DNA from: a virus
Length of the DNA stretch: 24,122 bases
Virus record (IMG/VR): IMGVR_UViG_3300034106_002716
Coordinates: 1 to 24,122 of that record
Direction: 5' to 3' (one strand)
Part shown: positions 475 to 9,801 of the stretch, one piece after another
Layout of the letters: every line of letters starts with the position of its first letter
Numbering within the stretch: the stretch's first letter is position 1
Notes under the pieces: generated by a model
Databases searched by the model: none
What the model saw: the letters and a program-made list of their open reading frames with translations, nothing else
What the model was told of the DNA's origin: nothing
Program-made: the position numbers and the translations under genes

Positions 475-1091
475 TGATCAAAATTAGTGCAACCCAGCTC
501 GAATCGTACCGCCGATTTCTTGATGGTCTGATTACAGTCGAGCAGTTCGAGCGCTCACTTCTTAGACTCGACCCGCCTAATGCAATGATGCAAAGAGGGA
601 TAGAGTTTCACGAAATGATGCAGACTGACTCGCCTCAAGAATTCGAGGGTAAGTTTAGCGAAAACTGCATTCTTAATGCACGAAATTGCATGGATTACCG
701 CTCGCGAGTCTTTGAGTACAAAGTTCGCAAAGTATTCCGCACTCAATTTGGTGATATATCAGTAACAGGCGTCGCAGACCAGCTTATCGGACTCGATGTC
801 GTAGAAATCAAAACTAAGTACAGCCCTATCAGTTTTGATGCATATTACGACTCAATTCAATGGCGTGTATATTGCGAGCTTTTCAACGCGCCGTATGTAC
901 ATTACAAGATATTCGAGTTTGACTCGCCTGAAGCGATGGACTTTAAAAACAAAGCGGAATACTCATTCCCAAGACCCGCGTACAATTACGAATATGTCCG
1001 AAATATGATACACTACTTACACGAGTATATCTTAGTTCGAGGGCTTGATAAAGAGGATGTTTTGCAATTGAAAGAAGGAGTTACAGCATGA
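474..1091 (+). CDS. PD-(D/E)XK superfamily nuclease (Cas4/RecB-like)
   Basis: The 205-residue protein has the order of motifs seen in RecB/Cas4-type exonucleases: an N-terminal S-x-x-x-x-Y-R segment, R-G-I-E-F-H-E (residues 41-47, with H46 matching the family His), G-V-A-D (99-102), V-V-E-I-K-T (109-114, catalytic E111 and K113), and a Q-W-x-x-Y helix (129-133). This family cuts or resects DNA with Mg2+, and phage members usually serve recombination or replication. No Cys cluster for a Cas4-like iron-sulphur centre is apparent, so a plain RecB-like phage exonuclease is the better reading. It is preceded by a one-base overlap with the upstream gene and overlaps the next by four bases (ATGA at 1088). 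Confidence 0.82.
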   Translation: MIKISATQLESYRRFLDGLITVEQFERSLLRLDPPNAMMQRGIEFHEMMQTDSPQEFEGKFSENCILNARNCMDYRSRVFEYKVRKVFRTQFGDISVTGVADQLIGLDVVEIKTKYSPISFDAYYDSIQWRVYCELFNAPYVHYKIFEFDSPEAMDFKNKAEYSFPRPAYNYEYVRNMIHYLHEYILVRGLDKEDVLQLKEGVTA

Positions 1092-1426
1092 ATATCAAAC
1101 CAGTTCCCGTACCACCAGAACAAACAGCATTTAAAAAAGGAGTTCCTATGAGTCAGCAATTAAGACAAGAAAGAGAGCAAGTAGAGAAATCTGCAATTAA
1201 ACAAAAAGCTACACCCGATGAACTTGGAGCGCCAATAAGACGCGGACCAAAGCCCGGAAGCGGTGGAAGACCACGCAAAGAGCTTGGCGCAAATTACACG
1301 CCGAAAGCGGTGACTGATGGCTTCAGCGAGCTTGTAAAAGCTACGCTCGAACTACCAACCGAGCAGCATATTAAAGTAAAACTCATATCTGCAGTAATCT
1401 CGATGCACCAGCGAGGTGAACTATGA
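1088..1426 (+). CDS. Small AT-hook-like DNA-binding protein with shared N-terminal peptide
   Basis: A 112-residue protein with a well-placed Shine-Dalgarno AAGGAG (1075-1080). Residues 18-30 carry the peptide G-V-P-M-S-Q-Q-L-R-Q-E-R-E, found in similar form in the next two genes and more weakly in the fourth. It is followed by a basic, Gly/Pro-rich stretch R-G-P-K-P-G-S-G-G-R-P-R-K (52-64), which resembles AT-hook minor-groove binders (core G-R-P). The C-terminal 45 residues look helical and are unassigned. DNA binding is inferred from composition. The neighbours, a nuclease before and DNA-binding proteins then primase after, point to a role in early replication or transcription control. Confidence 0.75.
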   Translation: MNIKPVPVPPEQTAFKKGVPMSQQLRQEREQVEKSAIKQKATPDELGAPIRRGPKPGSGGRPRKELGANYTPKAVTDGFSELVKATLELPTEQHIKVKLISAVISMHQRGEL

Positions 1427-1731
1427 AAACATCCGCCCTATACAAAGAAGTCGCCGGTATCGAAACATCACTTAAGCCAGGCGTGCCATTATCTCAGCAA
1501 TTGCGAGAGGAACGCAAGGTAATCGAGAAAACTGCAATCGGATACCAAAAGAGCAAAGGCGAAGGACTCACACCCGATGAAAGACAAGGCATTACAGCTC
1601 TTGCTCTCAAGTTGCCACACGCAATGGCAGATCGTTTTAGAGAACTCGCAAGAGCGCAAAATATCTCAAAAAGAGAGCTATTCCGCCGAGCACTAACTAA
1701 ATACTTTAAAGAATTTGAGGATGTACAATGA
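1423..1731 (+). CDS. Ribbon-helix-helix-like DNA-binding protein with shared N-terminal peptide
   Basis: A 102-residue protein starting in an ATGA overlap with the previous gene, with GAGGTG just upstream. Residues 20-31 read G-V-P-L-S-Q-Q-L-R-E-E-R, the clearest copy of the N-terminal peptide shared by this run of genes. Residues 58-95 have a CopG/Arc-like pattern: a strand (I-T-A-L-A-L-K-L-P), helix A (H-A-M-A-D-R-F-R-E-L-A-R), a turn (N-I-S) and helix B (K-R-E-L-F-R-R-A-L-T-K-Y-F). Such proteins bind DNA as dimers through the strand pair and often repress or organise promoters and origins. The RHH assignment is from pattern alone; the target is unknown. Confidence 0.75.
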   Translation: MKTSALYKEVAGIETSLKPGVPLSQQLREERKVIEKTAIGYQKSKGEGLTPDERQGITALALKLPHAMADRFRELARAQNISKRELFRRALTKYFKEFEDVQ

Positions 1732-2291
1732 ATTCAGTGTTTTTACTAGATGAGGGGGAAGGTCTACCGACCCCCTTTATCAAAGGCAAAAGCCTATCCG
1801 AGCAACTAAGAGAAGAACGCGAAGAACTCGAACGCAAAGCCAAACAAGCAATAAAAACTAAGAATAACCTCGCGGATTATTACTTTGCAAAACAAAAGAG
1901 ACCGCAAATTCAATACGCTCAAATTAACCCGAAAACTAAAAGCGCTCACTTTATGAAAAGAGGCATGGACTTCGCATTCGCAAATCCATACGCTGAACTA
2001 TCCGGGCTTGAAGTCGAAATACTCAAACACTTTCCGACAAAACACACGCTCAGAGATAAGGTAAGATTCCAAGAGCTAATAGCAGCAAAGCGTATGTTTA
2101 TATTCTTTGCAACCGTATATCTGAAGCTCACATCATTCAAGATCGCCGAATACCTAAACATGAATCGCTCGACTTTATCGCATCATATTTACGCGGCAAT
2201 CGATGAACTTGATACTTACTCGCAAGTGCAAGTAACAGCCCAAAAAATCGAAGACTATCTCTGGACTCGACATGAACAATTTAGATCGTGA
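1728..2291 (+). CDS. DnaA domain IV-like helix-turn-helix protein with shared N-terminal peptide
   Basis: A 187-residue protein starting in an ATGA overlap. Residues 20-35 read G-K-S-L-S-E-Q-L-R-E-E-R-E-E-L-E, a third copy of the shared peptide. The C-terminal half (about 112-165) has the layout of the DnaA C-terminal DNA-binding domain: a long helix with A-A-K-R-M-F-I-F-F-A, then S-F-K-I-A-E-Y-L and N-R-S-T-L-S-H-H-I, comparable with I-G-x-x-F / R-D-H-S-T-V in bacterial DnaA. No AAA+ ATPase motifs exist, so it is not an initiator ATPase by itself. It may bind DnaA-box-like or phage origin sites, or regulate transcription. A generic phage HTH regulator is the alternative. Confidence 0.72.
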   Translation: MNSVFLLDEGEGLPTPFIKGKSLSEQLREEREELERKAKQAIKTKNNLADYYFAKQKRPQIQYAQINPKTKSAHFMKRGMDFAFANPYAELSGLEVEILKHFPTKHTLRDKVRFQELIAAKRMFIFFATVYLKLTSFKIAEYLNMNRSTLSHHIYAAIDELDTYSQVQVTAQKIEDYLWTRHEQFRS

Positions 2292-2330
2292 AACTACTTT
2301 ACAAGTCGGATATTATATCGAGGAAAAAAT

Positions 2331-2771
2331 ATGCCCTTACATCCGATCGGTCACATCAGTGATCTCGCGCAAGATACAAACCCTAAGCCACTGGCTACGC
2401 TTCCGCTTTCAGCGATTCTTAAAATAGAAAGAGAGGAATTGTTCGGAAATCGAACAAAAAAACCGCGCGGACGTGTTCGAAAACTGAACACGGCGGCACT
2501 TTACGAAATATCCGAGCGGGTAATTGAAGTGGTTGCGGAATATTACGGAGTCTCTTTGCAGCATATCCACCAGCGCCAAAGCTTTGCGCGCCATGTGGCA
2601 ATAACAATATGCTACCAAGACTTTAACTTTACCATGACCGATATTGCCTTTATCTTTAATTGCGACCGTAAATTACCTATAATTGCAGCCCGAAATATCA
2701 AACACGAGCGCATCCTAGACCCGAACTTCAACGAAATCTACTTACAACTTATTCGCAAGGCCAAGGCATGA
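2331..2771 (+). CDS. Second DnaA domain IV-like protein with AT-hook-like segment
   Basis: A 146-residue protein; GAGGA lies about 7 bases before the ATG. Residues 24-38 (L-P-L-S-A-I-L-K-I-E-R-E-E-L-F) look like a diverged fourth copy of the peptide in the three preceding genes. Residues 43-51 (K-K-P-R-G-R-V-R-K) are AT-hook-like. From about residue 62 the protein follows DnaA domain IV: V-A-E-Y-Y-G-V-S, then R-Q-S-F-A-R-H-V-A-I, then F-T-M-T-D-I-A-F-I-F-N and C-D-R-K. The usual DnaA D-H-S/T-T loop residues are replaced, so DNA specificity probably differs. Its TGA overlaps the start of the primase-helicase (ATGA), which ties it to replication. Function is inferred. Confidence 0.75.
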   Translation: MPLHPIGHISDLAQDTNPKPLATLPLSAILKIEREELFGNRTKKPRGRVRKLNTAALYEISERVIEVVAEYYGVSLQHIHQRQSFARHVAITICYQDFNFTMTDIAFIFNCDRKLPIIAARNIKHERILDPNFNEIYLQLIRKAKA

Positions 2772-4972
2772 GTATTACTATCTCTTTCTTCAACTCAACA
2801 CGCGAAACCAAAGCCGCGAAGACTATGGACTTCGACTTCTTTCTAAAGTCAGTAGAACAAGGCATATGGCAAGACCTTGTCCTCAAATACCGAAACCTAG
2901 AAGAAGGCGAAAACAAAACCAACTTTAAACGCAAGCTCCCTGCTATCTCCCCCTCTGGTAAATTCGCAGAACGCAAAGCGGACGCGCTCGAAGCTCACTC
3001 TGGTATTCTTTGCATGGATATCGATGAGAAAGATAATCCCGAGATGCAAATCGAACAACTGCAGTCAGATCCATTTGTATATGCCTACCATCAGTCAGTC
3101 GGAGGCTATGGCTATGCAGTGTACTTCTTAATTGAGCCTACAAAGCATTTAGAAGCCTACCACGCTATCGAAAAGCACTTAGCCGATAGTTACCACCTTA
3201 TTTGCGATCCAGCGTGTAAGGATACCTCTAGACTTCGCTTTGTATCCTTTGACCCGCATCTTTACAGACGCGAAGGCAAAACACAAGTATTTAAACGATA
3301 CCTAAAACAACCAAAAGCAGAGGCGCGGAGATATTATCCACACACTAAGTCCGATATAGATCATATCCTCATGCAAATAGGCTCGCGTGGTATTGACCTA
3401 GTAGACTCATACTATGATTGGATGCAAATCGGCTTCGCTCTCGCAGGACACTACGGCGAACAAGGCCGAACATACTTTCACTGCATATCTCAGCAAGGTT
3501 CTAAGTATGATGCCATAAAATGTGATGCTAAGTATACCGAGTGCCTTAAAACAGGAAAAGGCCGCGTAAAAATCAATACTTTCTTTTACAAGTGCAAAGA
3601 AGCCGGTATTGAGATACAAACGGAGGAAAGCCGCAAAGTAGAACGCTATACCAAGGCGCAAATGCTGCAGGGCTTCAAGTCAGATGCCGAAATAGTCGAG
3701 TCAGTTACCAAACTAGCCAAGCAAGACGGCATAGCAACCGAGATAGCTCAAGACATAGCAGAGCAAACACTCGCTATACCACGCTCCGAATTAACAAAAG
3801 AGAAACAAGCAAACCTATTACCCGAAATCCGCGCCGCGCTGGCCTCTTATGGCATGAAGCTTAATGAAGTTACGAACATGATCGAATACCAAGACCGAGC
3901 ACTCACCGACTGGGATGTTAACACCATCTGGGGCGAGATTGCCGATAAACTAGGCTCGCGAGTCGCTAAAACAACCATCGAAGATATCATAAACTCAGAT
4001 GCAACGCCTCGATATAACCCATTTATGCAGTTTTTTGAGGCAAATAAAGATAAAGTAACCCAAAACAACATCGAAAAGCTCGCAGAGTGTATCACCTTTG
4101 ACTCTCAAGGAGTTACATACGAAGAATACCAAGCATATGCACACGCTTTCTTGCGCAAATGGATAGTATCAATCGTTGCATCCATGCATGGCACTTACTC
4201 GCTTCTTATCCTGGTGCTTGTCGGAGGGCAAGGCATTGGGAAAACTAATTTCTTTAGATGGCTCTTGCCAAAAGAGCTACGAAGCTACTACGGAGAATCC
4301 AAACTCGATACCGGCAAGGATGATCTTATGCTTATGTGTACAAAACTAATCCTATGCGACGATGAGTTCTCAGGTAAAAACAAAAGCGAGTACAAACATA
4401 TCAAAGACATAAGCTCAAAGCAAACTATCACTCTTAGATTGCCATACGGCCGCAGGACGCAAGACTTTACACGATATGCCGTGCTTTCAGGAACTTCAAA
4501 CGACCTTGAGATCATAAACGACCCGACCGGGAACCGCCGTATCGTGCCTATCAATATAAAAGCAATTGACTTCGAGGCATTCAACGCGATCGACAAAACC
4601 GAGTTATTCATGGAGGCATATCGCATCTATCATACCGAAGGCGATAGCTCTTGGCAATTATCCAAAGAGGATATTGAAAACCTGAATCAGCTCACTTCAT
4701 ATAACGAGCAAGTAGATACAGTCGAAGAGGCAATCATGATGTTTTTTGAGAGAACTGACTCGAATCATGAATCAAATACCAAAACAACAACCGAGATCAT
4801 ATCCTACATGATGCAGTACACAAAGTTGCATTTTAACACTCAAAGAGTCGGAATCGCTCTCAGAAATTTAGGATTTGAAAGAACCACAAAACGCAAAAAT
4901 GGCAAGCCGGTGAAGTGTTACAAGGTAAAAGAGATACTCCCTACTACACTTAATTCAGGCATTTACGGTTAA
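2768..4972 (+). CDS. Primase-helicase: BT4734/VirE N-terminal, PriCT-like and VirE-family ATPase domains
   Basis: A 734-residue replication protein. The N-terminal about 190 residues look like the BT4734/VirE-N domain, an archaeo-eukaryotic primase-type fold (L-C-M-D-I-D-E with acidic residues; S-V-G-G-Y-G-Y-A-V-Y). Residues about 195-280 match the PriCT-2 type helical module (Y-D-W-M-Q-I-G-F-A-L-A). The C-terminal half is a VirE-family (PF05272-like) SF3-type ATPase: Walker A G-G-Q-G-I-G-K-T at 486-493, Walker B L-C-D-D-E-F around 531-533, and the signature L-S-G-T-S-N-D followed by D-P-T-G-N-R-R. A winged-helix-like tail follows. The protein probably primes and unwinds phage DNA. It starts in an ATGA overlap with a DnaA-like gene and is followed by a repeat-rich gap that may be its origin. 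Confidence 0.9.
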   Translation: MSITISFFNSTRETKAAKTMDFDFFLKSVEQGIWQDLVLKYRNLEEGENKTNFKRKLPAISPSGKFAERKADALEAHSGILCMDIDEKDNPEMQIEQLQSDPFVYAYHQSVGGYGYAVYFLIEPTKHLEAYHAIEKHLADSYHLICDPACKDTSRLRFVSFDPHLYRREGKTQVFKRYLKQPKAEARRYYPHTKSDIDHILMQIGSRGIDLVDSYYDWMQIGFALAGHYGEQGRTYFHCISQQGSKYDAIKCDAKYTECLKTGKGRVKINTFFYKCKEAGIEIQTEESRKVERYTKAQMLQGFKSDAEIVESVTKLAKQDGIATEIAQDIAEQTLAIPRSELTKEKQANLLPEIRAALASYGMKLNEVTNMIEYQDRALTDWDVNTIWGEIADKLGSRVAKTTIEDIINSDATPRYNPFMQFFEANKDKVTQNNIEKLAECITFDSQGVTYEEYQAYAHAFLRKWIVSIVASMHGTYSLLILVLVGGQGIGKTNFFRWLLPKELRSYYGESKLDTGKDDLMLMCTKLILCDDEFSGKNKSEYKHIKDISSKQTITLRLPYGRRTQDFTRYAVLSGTSNDLEIINDPTGNRRIVPINIKAIDFEAFNAIDKTELFMEAYRIYHTEGDSSWQLSKEDIENLNQLTSYNEQVDTVEEAIMMFFERTDSNHESNTKTTTEIISYMMQYTKLHFNTQRVGIALRNLGFERTTKRKNGKPVKCYKVKEILPTTLNSGIYG

Positions 4973-5211
4973 TTCGCTAATTTTTCGCCATTGTGAAGTG
5001 TAGTAAGACTAGAGGTAAAAAACGCCCTAAAACTTCCCAGCAATTTACAGTGTGTGTGATTGCACTTACTATACTATATATAATATATATATATATATAT
5101 ATATTCTCTTACTACATTACTACAAATAGTATAACTACCAATTAAATCAACAATTTAGAGTGTAGTAAGGACTTTTGAAAAACTTACTACAGTCTTACTA
5201 CGTTACTACAA
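4973..5211 (+). promoter_or_regulatory. Repeat-rich AT-rich intergenic region: candidate replication origin or operator
   Basis: This is the longest stretch without a gene in the window. It holds seven exact copies of TTACTAC or its complement GTAGTAA, a direct repeat CTTACTAC[A/G]TTACTACAAAT (5108-5127 and 5194-5213), a direct repeat GTGTAGTAAG (4998-5007 and 5160-5169), and a (TA)n-rich tract at about 5071-5104 that should melt easily. Repeated protein-binding sites next to an AT-rich unwinding element, lying between primase-helicase and helicase genes, is the usual build of an iteron-type origin. Because the last repeat runs into the start codon of the next gene, an operator for autoregulation is an equally fair reading. 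No convincing -35/-10 pair was found. Confidence 0.55.
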
Positions 5212-7823: not shown

Positions 7824-8329
7824 CAGATAAAGACAAGAGCGTCATGGCTTTTGAGAAAATCAAGAATACTGTATTGCCAAAACTCATTAGCGGTGAGATA
7901 ATAAGCATTGAGAAAGAGGAGAGTGGTTCAGTCCTTGCCATGATGGATATTCATTCTGGAATTGATTTAGTTAGAAAGAATGAGATAGGATTACAAGGGA
8001 TAGCATGGCGTGCTCAATGGGAGAAAGCGTATAATACTTTTACTATTAGAGCTGAAAGAACAACAGGCACTAAAACAGAATTAGAGAAGCGTTTAGAAGC
8101 TATAGAAAAAGAATACTTTTATCCGGCTTATACGATACAAGCATATTTTGATAATGATCGTGACTTTAATTGGTTGTCAGTTGGCATAATTAGAACAAGA
8201 GATTTATACGAGACATTTATCGAAAGACCTGATTTATTTAGCGAAAGAACAGTCAAATCCGATGGCAATAAATTTTATGTTGTCAATTGGAATAATTTAC
8301 CAACGATGAAAACCTTACACTTGCGATGA
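7808..8329 (+). CDS. Hypothetical protein next to the methyltransferase, possible nuclease
   Basis: A 173-residue AT-rich gene overlapping the methyltransferase by 16 bases. I do not recognise a family with confidence. Conserved-looking segments are M-M-D-I-H-S-G-I-D (45-53), G-L-Q-G-I-A-W-R-A-Q-W (61-71), F-T-I-R-A-E-R-T-T-G (78-87) and E-K-R-L-E-A-I-E (93-100). Aspartates at 47 and 53 followed by strands with Q/R could suit a degenerate PD-(D/E)XK-like fold, but that is a guess. Overlap with, and base composition like, the methyltransferase half upstream suggest the two moved together. They could form a modification pair or a restriction-like module. No membrane segment or signal peptide. 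Confidence 0.7.
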   Translation: MQDWIADKDKSVMAFEKIKNTVLPKLISGEIISIEKEESGSVLAMMDIHSGIDLVRKNEIGLQGIAWRAQWEKAYNTFTIRAERTTGTKTELEKRLEAIEKEYFYPAYTIQAYFDNDRDFNWLSVGIIRTRDLYETFIERPDLFSERTVKSDGNKFYVVNWNNLPTMKTLHLR

Positions 8330-8487
8330 CTACCGAGCAATGGCTTAACGATATGATCGATGACATAGTCATGGAGTACGGCGTGTCTCACGATACGGCG
8401 CGTATTATGCTCTTTGCTTGGCTTGCAGAGTTACTAAGATGGAGTCCGAAGTTTTACGCAATGATGGATTATTTGCTGAATGAGTGA
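8326..8487 (+). CDS. Short hypothetical protein, 53 aa
   Basis: An open frame from ATG 8326 to TGA 8485-8487 fills the gap between two genes. Its ATG overlaps the preceding stop (ATGA), and its end overlaps the next start (8480) by eight bases, the same coupling used throughout this genome. The peptide begins M-T-T-E-Q-W-L and is helical and acidic, with hydrophobic positions spaced as in an amphipathic helix (R-I-M-L-F-A-W-L-A-E-L-L). No known domain. The precise fit between its neighbours is the main reason to accept it. Confidence 0.65.
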   Translation: MTTEQWLNDMIDDIVMEYGVSHDTARIMLFAWLAELLRWSPKFYAMMDYLLNE

Positions 8488-8909: not shown

Positions 8910-9491
8910 ATGAACCATTACTACCAAAACATTCACGGCTGGTTCGACTATGAAGACATAATTAAGCTAGCCATTGACAAAGCCGAAGACGGCGCTAAGT
9001 TTGTAGAGATCGGAGCTTGGAAAGGCAAGAGCGCTGCTTTCGCGGGAGTGGAAATTCTAAACAGCGGTAAGGATATTACCTACTATGCTGTAGATCACTT
9101 TCTAGGCTCTGAAGAGCACCGTAACCCAGTTTCAGAGCACTACGATTATGCGACTCAAAGCGGCGAGCTTAGAGGTCAGTACTTGACTAATATCGAGCCT
9201 GTTAAGTCGATAGTAAAGACTTACGACATGACAAGTGCTCAAGCCTCTAAGATGTTCAAAAAGAAGAGCGTAGACTTTATCTTTATCGATGGCTCTCATG
9301 ACTATGACTCTGTTTGCGTAGATATTGAGATATGGCTACCTAAGCTGAAGCCTGGTGGAATGATCGGCGGTCATGATTATACGACGCATGAAACGGTAAA
9401 GAATGCAGTAGATACTTATTTTACGGACTTGCAAATAATCGGCAAGTCATGGTTATACATTTCTAGGAGTAAGGACAATGGCAAAGATTGA
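8910..9491 (+). CDS. Class I SAM-dependent methyltransferase (Methyltransf_24-like)
   Basis: A 193-residue protein. The SAM-binding core shows F-V-E-I-G-A-W-K-G-K-S (motif I, about residues 30-40), Y-Y-A-V-D-H-F (motif II acidic residue), V-D-F-I-F-I-D-G-S-H-D-Y (motif IV region) and L-K-P-G-G-M-I-G-G-H-D-Y. This pattern belongs to the methyltransferase family 24 group, whose members often act on sugars or small molecules and which is common in phages beside glycosyltransferases. A GT7-like gene lies three genes downstream, which makes glycan methylation an attractive idea, but the substrate is not shown by the sequence. Its end overlaps the SSB gene by 14 bases. Confidence 0.85.
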   Translation: MNHYYQNIHGWFDYEDIIKLAIDKAEDGAKFVEIGAWKGKSAAFAGVEILNSGKDITYYAVDHFLGSEEHRNPVSEHYDYATQSGELRGQYLTNIEPVKSIVKTYDMTSAQASKMFKKKSVDFIFIDGSHDYDSVCVDIEIWLPKLKPGGMIGGHDYTTHETVKNAVDTYFTDLQIIGKSWLYISRSKDNGKD

Positions 9492-9801
9492 GATTAGCGG
9501 CGAGGTAGTGTATGTCGGAGCGCCTGTAAAGTATTCCGATAAATTCACAAAAGCGGAAATCGTGGTAAAAGATTCTACTAGCAAGTATCCTGAGTTTATC
9601 AAGTTCGAGGCGATTAACGACAAAGTAGAACTCATGCGAGGCTATCCAATAGGCACGAAGGTCACTGCAGAGGGCTTTGTCGGTGGTAAGGAATACACCA
9701 AGAAAGACGGCGGGATAGGATATATTACAAGTATCAAGCTCGCTAAGATTTACGAAAACAAGCCTGCGCCTGTAGAGGTTCCCGATGCTATACCATTTTG
9801 A
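9478..9801 (+). CDS. ssb: Single-stranded DNA-binding protein, DUF3127-like OB fold
   Basis: A 107-residue protein with the strand pattern of DUF3127/OB-fold proteins: I-S-G-E-V-V-Y-V, then K-A-E-I-V-V-K-D, Y-P-E-F-I-K-F-E-A, D-K-V-E-L and K-V-T-A-E-G-F. It ends V-P-D-A-I-P-F, very like the D-D-I-P-F tail by which bacterial SSBs recruit helicases, nucleases and polymerases. It should coat single-stranded DNA during phage replication and recombination. A good Shine-Dalgarno (AGGAG, 9465-9469) precedes the ATG. The codons for the I-P-F tail are also read, in another frame, as the start of the next gene. Confidence 0.8.
   Translation: MAKIEISGEVVYVGAPVKYSDKFTKAEIVVKDSTSKYPEFIKFEAINDKVELMRGYPIGTKVTAEGFVGGKEYTKKDGGIGYITSIKLAKIYENKPAPVEVPDAIPF

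Follow-up and report, generated by a model that had tools for sequence, protein, structure and literature searches.

A short N-terminal peptide reused before unrelated DNA-binding regions in a phage replication locus, and its possible role as a docking helix

Why should four consecutive phage genes encode proteins that share a short N-terminal peptide and then continue into different DNA-binding regions? The question is raised by a virus record of 24,122 bases from an uncultivated phage group, which is called the window here. An earlier note on this DNA had suggested that the peptide is a docking tag for one common partner.

The peptide and the genes that carry it

The gene order in the window is a Cas4/exonuclease-like gene (474), the four genes in question, which represent families A (1088), B (1423), C (1728) and D (2331), and a primase-helicase gene (2768). 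An iteron-bearing intergenic region (4973-5211) lies downstream of the primase-helicase gene, and a ResIII helicase gene (5212) follows. Genes A, B and C follow one another with their ends overlapping. Related records contain, further upstream, what we take to be a Sak4-like ATPase, named from the appearance of its sequence. Because the nearest named relatives of the primase-helicase are from Cellulophaga, Nonlabens and Flavobacterium phages (31-39% identity), a Bacteroidota host appears likely.

All four genes are on the plus strand. The family A gene (1088-1426; 112 aa) encodes its peptide core, GVPMSQQLRQER, at 1139-1174 (residues 18-29), followed by an AT-hook-like basic segment (RRGPKPGSGGRPRKELG) and a helical C-terminus of unassigned kind. 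In the family B gene (1423-1731; 102 aa), the core GVPLSQQLREER at 1480-1515 (residues 20-31) precedes a ribbon-helix-helix domain (residues 62-94), and in the family C gene (1728-2291; 187 aa), GKSLSEQLREER at 1785-1820 (residues 20-31) is followed by a linker and a DnaA-domain-IV-like fold (about residues 87-186). The family D gene (2331-2771; 146 aa) has the core LPLSAILKIER at 2400-2432 (residues 24-34), a basic linker, KKPRGR, and again a DnaA-domain-IV-like fold (about residues 54-145). Common to all four is the N-terminal motif [LM]-S-x-x-L-[RK]-x-E-R-x-x-[LIV], and the open reading frames and peptides were confirmed in the sequence where the earlier note had placed them. A 51-aa reading frame (2272-2427) overlaps the 5' end of the family D gene in another frame; it is open across the window clade, has a similar start in the sister clade, and is possibly a small overlapping gene.

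The likeness of the peptides was measured as the best 12-residue match between N-termini and compared with 300 shuffles. The scores were 54 for A-B, 45 for A-C and 42 for B-C, and none of the 300 shuffles reached these values; shuffled N-termini had mean scores of about 19-20 and maxima of 33-36, and among 351 control pairs of other window genes the top score was 32. The fourth peptide, which the earlier note had counted as a weaker copy, scored 26-31 against A, B and C, values reached by 2-7 of 300 shuffles. Judged from the window alone it is marginal and could be due to chance, and it is through relatives that its membership is confirmed: in the sister clade, family D reads LPLSQQLKIER and was found by a profile built without D at an E-value of 3e-5. 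Family A, where present in that clade, reads GVSMSEQLRRER.

Reuse and selection of the peptide within one phage group

About 35 IMG/VR contigs carry tagged genes, that is, genes with the peptide, and 5 of these contigs form a sister clade with primases about 50% identical. Every carrier comes from the same phage group, for which metagenomes are the only source. The motif is borne by 10 members of family A, which is accessory among the contigs examined, by 30 of B (30/30 members), 32 of C and 31 of D, and by 2 of a fifth family, E, seen in sister phages only. E matches D over its first ~43 residues but not at the C-terminus, and the alignment of the two covers just the opening 43-48 residues (hhalign E 7e-8, 42% identity). 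The peptide is missing from only two family members examined, the C homologues of sister phages 25445 and 27659, in which the whole N-terminal module is gone and the DNA-binding domain is retained. Apart from this loss, none of the outcomes that the earlier note had named as refuting its reading was seen, whether gene runs lacking the peptide, free variation of it in related phages or matches no better than chance. Within the window clade the A slot varies: in some phages it is empty, and in others its occupant is a Recombinase-type gene that has no copy of the peptide. Many relatives have an insertion between B and C that encodes a SNF2-type helicase and an N6/N4 DNA methyltransferase, either as one fused gene or as two genes (L010:5306-7486, L015:5306-7676, L055:2049-4401).

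Each family was then held out in turn, and profiles from the other four were searched against 1,175 open reading frames. Held-out members were recovered at E-values of 9e-10 to 3e-11 for A, 1e-8 to 4e-12 for B and 3e-5 to 8e-10 for C; the values for D (0.13 to 3e-5) and E (0.02-0.1) were modest. In all five tests the held-out family ranked above every non-member, including the weakest D member at 0.13. Together with the shuffles and the gene-pair control, these profiles exclude a chance likeness of Q/R/E-rich helices, directly in the window for A, B and C and through relatives for D and E. A combined profile run on 13 phage records found 2-4 copies in each, all in the tagged-gene locus, and the match ranked after these had an E-value of 0.019; the peptide does recur before other DNA-binding regions of the same locus. 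Three DNA-pattern scans of IMG/VR gave matches only in the same phage group. The same profile that had proven itself on phage records gave 0 matches in 396 Bacteroidota genomes, the peptide was not found in phages whose primase is 31-44% identical, and a genome-collection scan with the C protein returned no relative. We found no description of the peptide in the open-access literature.

The earlier note had further held that the peptide is selected and not recently copied, its DNA having diverged between genes. Both points hold. Seven of the 10 residues that are identical in the 1088 and 1423 peptides have different codons, and silent divergence is abundant where residues are unchanged, which excludes recent DNA copying of the peptide. 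In family D, phages 44591_1189 and 25445 have 15/15 core residues identical with 13 codons silently changed; these 13 silent changes between sister phages also counter dual coding with the overlapping frame as the source of D conservation. The window and 44591_1189 share 80% identity in the core of C as well as of D, against 35% and 46%, respectively, for the rest of the protein. In family A, the window and 42559 are identical over residues 1-32 and 42% identical over the remainder; an exception is the comparison with 42326, in which the core is 80% identical and the region behind it 95%. Shared descent within one phage group inflates the count of independent cases among all these comparisons. 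Family profiles, codon changes and module swaps support a real module that is under selection and has been reused in front of unrelated DNA-binding regions.

The conserved positions (-1, 0, 3, 4, 6, 7 and 10) fall on one face of a helix across ten sub-lineages (moment test p 0.012), a test that is partly circular in that the search expression itself fixed some of the positions. In AlphaFold models of C and D, made from shallow alignments, confidence is low for the peptide helix (pLDDT about 50-65) and for the linker, and the C-terminal domain is well modelled; the helix starts at residue 23 in C (pLDDT about 62-64) and at residue 26 in D. The peptide has the features of a selected short motif in a flexible region that is reused on unrelated domains.

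The DNA-binding regions behind the peptide

The C-terminal regions had been described as unrelated, namely AT-hook-like, ribbon-helix-helix-like and, twice, DnaA domain IV-like. This description stands for three of the genes, and the first remains AT-hook-like only. Gene 1423 scores 28.1 bits against Pfam RHH_1 over residues 62-94 (cut-off 20.5). The AlphaFold model of gene 1728 aligned in Foldseek with DnaA domain IV of M. tuberculosis and E. coli at a TM-score by target of 0.84-0.86, and gene 2331 aligned with DnaA domain IV at 0.77-0.79; the probability was 1.00 in each case, with E-values of only 0.02-0.4 (1728) and 0.005-0.02 (2331). Gene 2331 also matched Aquifex DnaA in a PDB sequence profile search (E 0.0016). 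Both genes fell below the gathering score of Pfam Bac_DnaA_C, with 14.5 bits for 1728 and 24.5 bits for 2331 (cut-off 31.5), as did the sister orthologue of gene 1728 (E 5e-4). Gene 1088 has no Pfam AT_hook match; its sister orthologue (L075:6306-6650) contains RGRPPK/MGRPKK and scores 14.5 bits, below the cut-off of 17.4.

Families C and D are like DnaA in that an N-terminal interaction element and a flexible linker precede a fold of the domain-IV type, and in being part of a replication locus. Unlike DnaA, they are without domain I and without AAA+ domain III: genes 1728 and 2331 have no AAA match, and 187 and 146 aa leave no room for it. Their N-terminal element is a single short helix that is also found on non-DnaA domains, and canonical DnaA boxes are not in excess in the window. 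Another comparison is with phage regulators such as KilA-N, BRO-N and ORF6N, in which one N-terminal module is joined to different C-terminal domains, a combination that the tagged genes resemble. The modules of those regulators, however, are folded domains and much longer than the ~15-residue helix core described here, and in the present case a single locus holds every copy, with the DNA-binding domain as the part that varies.

What the peptide may bind

A one-faced helix, a low-confidence linker and module swapping fit the pattern expected of a docking helix for a common partner, and we judge this reading, the simplest one, to have about an even chance of being correct. Under it, a short linear motif would be tethered by a flexible linker to an AT-hook-like, ribbon-helix-helix or DnaA-domain-IV-like domain; each tagged protein would find its own DNA sites, and the common helix would recruit the same partner to all of them. 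Since the genes lie between a Cas4/exonuclease-like recombination gene and a primase-helicase gene, such a partner would most likely belong to the replication or recombination machinery of the phage or the host. That one short helix serves several DNA-binding domains of a single locus as a universal adaptor handle, taking one effector to many sites, is a tentative proposal that we would lean against.

The main rival is a self-assembly helix, through which tagged proteins would pair or bundle into one nucleoprotein complex without an outside partner. Hydrophobic residues at -1, 3 and 10 have the 4-7 spacing of a short coiled coil, the 2-4 tagged genes per phage record searched all share one locus, and DnaA-type proteins function as assemblies, which we count on this side. 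The helix is short, however. The Glu at position 6, which is invariant, lies on its hydrophobic side and Ser and Arg are invariant too, features that a specific groove would fit better than a generic coiled coil; moreover, C lost its tag in 25445 and 27659 while the other families retain theirs. We regard self-assembly as unlikely. Less probable again is that the N-terminus is a relic of gene duplication, spread by recombination and marking a common origin instead of a common partner. Such a history might leave genes that adjoin and overlap at their ends, as A, B and C do, and the swap seen inside family A genes immediately after the peptide. Continuing selection is nevertheless needed, because the core residues are constant, nearly all of their codons have silently changed and conservation is mostly higher in the core than in the DNA-binding domains, and we consider a mere relic quite improbable.

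As a sub-case of docking, the partner could be host RNA polymerase or a sigma factor, and the genes would then form a set of transcription regulators with one activation helix. One tag on different DNA readers would suit a regulon, and ribbon-helix-helix and AT-hook-like domains, such as those in genes 1423 and 1088, are common in regulators. Two of the four window families nevertheless have DnaA-type domains and adjoin replication genes, and the peptide matches no solved protein structure beyond a single chance-level match; this sub-case is distinctly unlikely. Finally, a host protease or adaptor might read the peptide as a degradation or localisation signal, giving all tagged DNA-binders the same short life. 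A near-N-terminal position and disordered surroundings are typical of such tags, yet this one lies some 20 residues into the protein, shows the pattern of a helix and does not occur in the phage's other proteins, and we know of no degron that matches it. This explanation is very improbable.

If the docking reading holds and the helix binds one partner, it would be a compact handle on how a single replication, recombination or transcription factor is directed to several kinds of DNA site, and the peptide could be used as bait to find that factor. It would likewise be a clear example, in prokaryotes, of a single short motif moved around between unrelated DNA-binding domains, and a recruitment network of this kind would have a logic comparable to that of interchangeable activation domains in eukaryotes. 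The sliding clamp was rejected as a partner, as the peptide does not read QLxLF, the clamp motif.

The primase-helicase (2768-4972, plus strand; BT4734-like_N, PriCT_2 and VapE-like) adjoins the tagged genes and is a candidate partner. It had been the first partner named in the earlier note, and that proposal is possible but weakened, its C-terminal segment covarying with iterons of its own. The primase and the ResIII helicase are present in both tagged and untagged phages compared, which leaves the primase-helicase as only one of several candidates. A Cas4-like gene, a 53-aa gene (8326-8487), a DUF3127 gene (9478) and several more occur in nearly all tagged phages and in few or none of the untagged phages compared. 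The DUF3127 protein (9478-9801) ends in DAIPF, a sequence resembling the tail tip of single-strand DNA-binding proteins. On the primase, only 13 scattered positions separate tagged from untagged phages, and no docking patch can be seen. The primase tree, which tells neither for nor against the partnership, is compatible with a single clade of tagged phages at a support of only 48, and the primase exchanges seen lie inside the tagged group. Within the window clade, B, C and D are 84-98% identical to those of the window, with one divergent member at about 60% (B and C) and 88% (D); the primases of these same phages are 46 to 99% identical.

The region at 4973-5211, directly downstream of the primase-helicase gene, has an AT-rich core flanked by CTTACTAC(A) iterons and is a candidate replication origin. 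Five of the 6 matches to CTTACTAC in the window are in this region, and none of 100 shuffles reached 6. Relatives keep the iteron layout with a changed iteron sequence, and this sequence tracks the C-terminal segment of the primase-helicase (residues about 641-734; window 4688-4969), not its N-terminal part. In 42321_946, the protein is 97% identical to that of the window over residues 1-360 and 62% over 675-722, and the iteron is CTGACAACA; in 32050_6297, the corresponding values are 41% and 79%, and the iteron, CTTACTACA, is that of the window. Four phages with the iteron CTTACCACA have a few changes in common in the C-terminal segment. From this covariation the primase-helicase appears to read its own iterons through that segment, and since these iterons lie beside its own gene, it probably finds the origin unaided. 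The tagged proteins are unlikely iteron readers, being near-identical across phages with different iterons. The initiator and iteron pairs make a natural domain-swap set for the recognition code of VapE/D5-type initiators.

SaPI Rep and SCCmec Cch2 are initiator helicases whose C-terminal domain binds repeats that lie downstream of the helicase gene (PMC7581432). The primase-helicase next to the tagged genes is like these in its downstream iteron array and in a C-terminal segment that follows the iteron sequence. The likeness is limited to the primase-helicase; the passages on these elements in PMC7581432 describe no set of tagged DNA-binders.

Contig 3300032050_006297 (47,520 bases; L072, L073) contains two different primase-helicase genes, 58% and 50% identical to that of the window, and may be a chimera or two joined phages. 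In the window itself (1-474), a 96-aa gene at 184 has an apparent near-copy just upstream, cut by the window start: the window opens with a repeat of the middle part of this gene.
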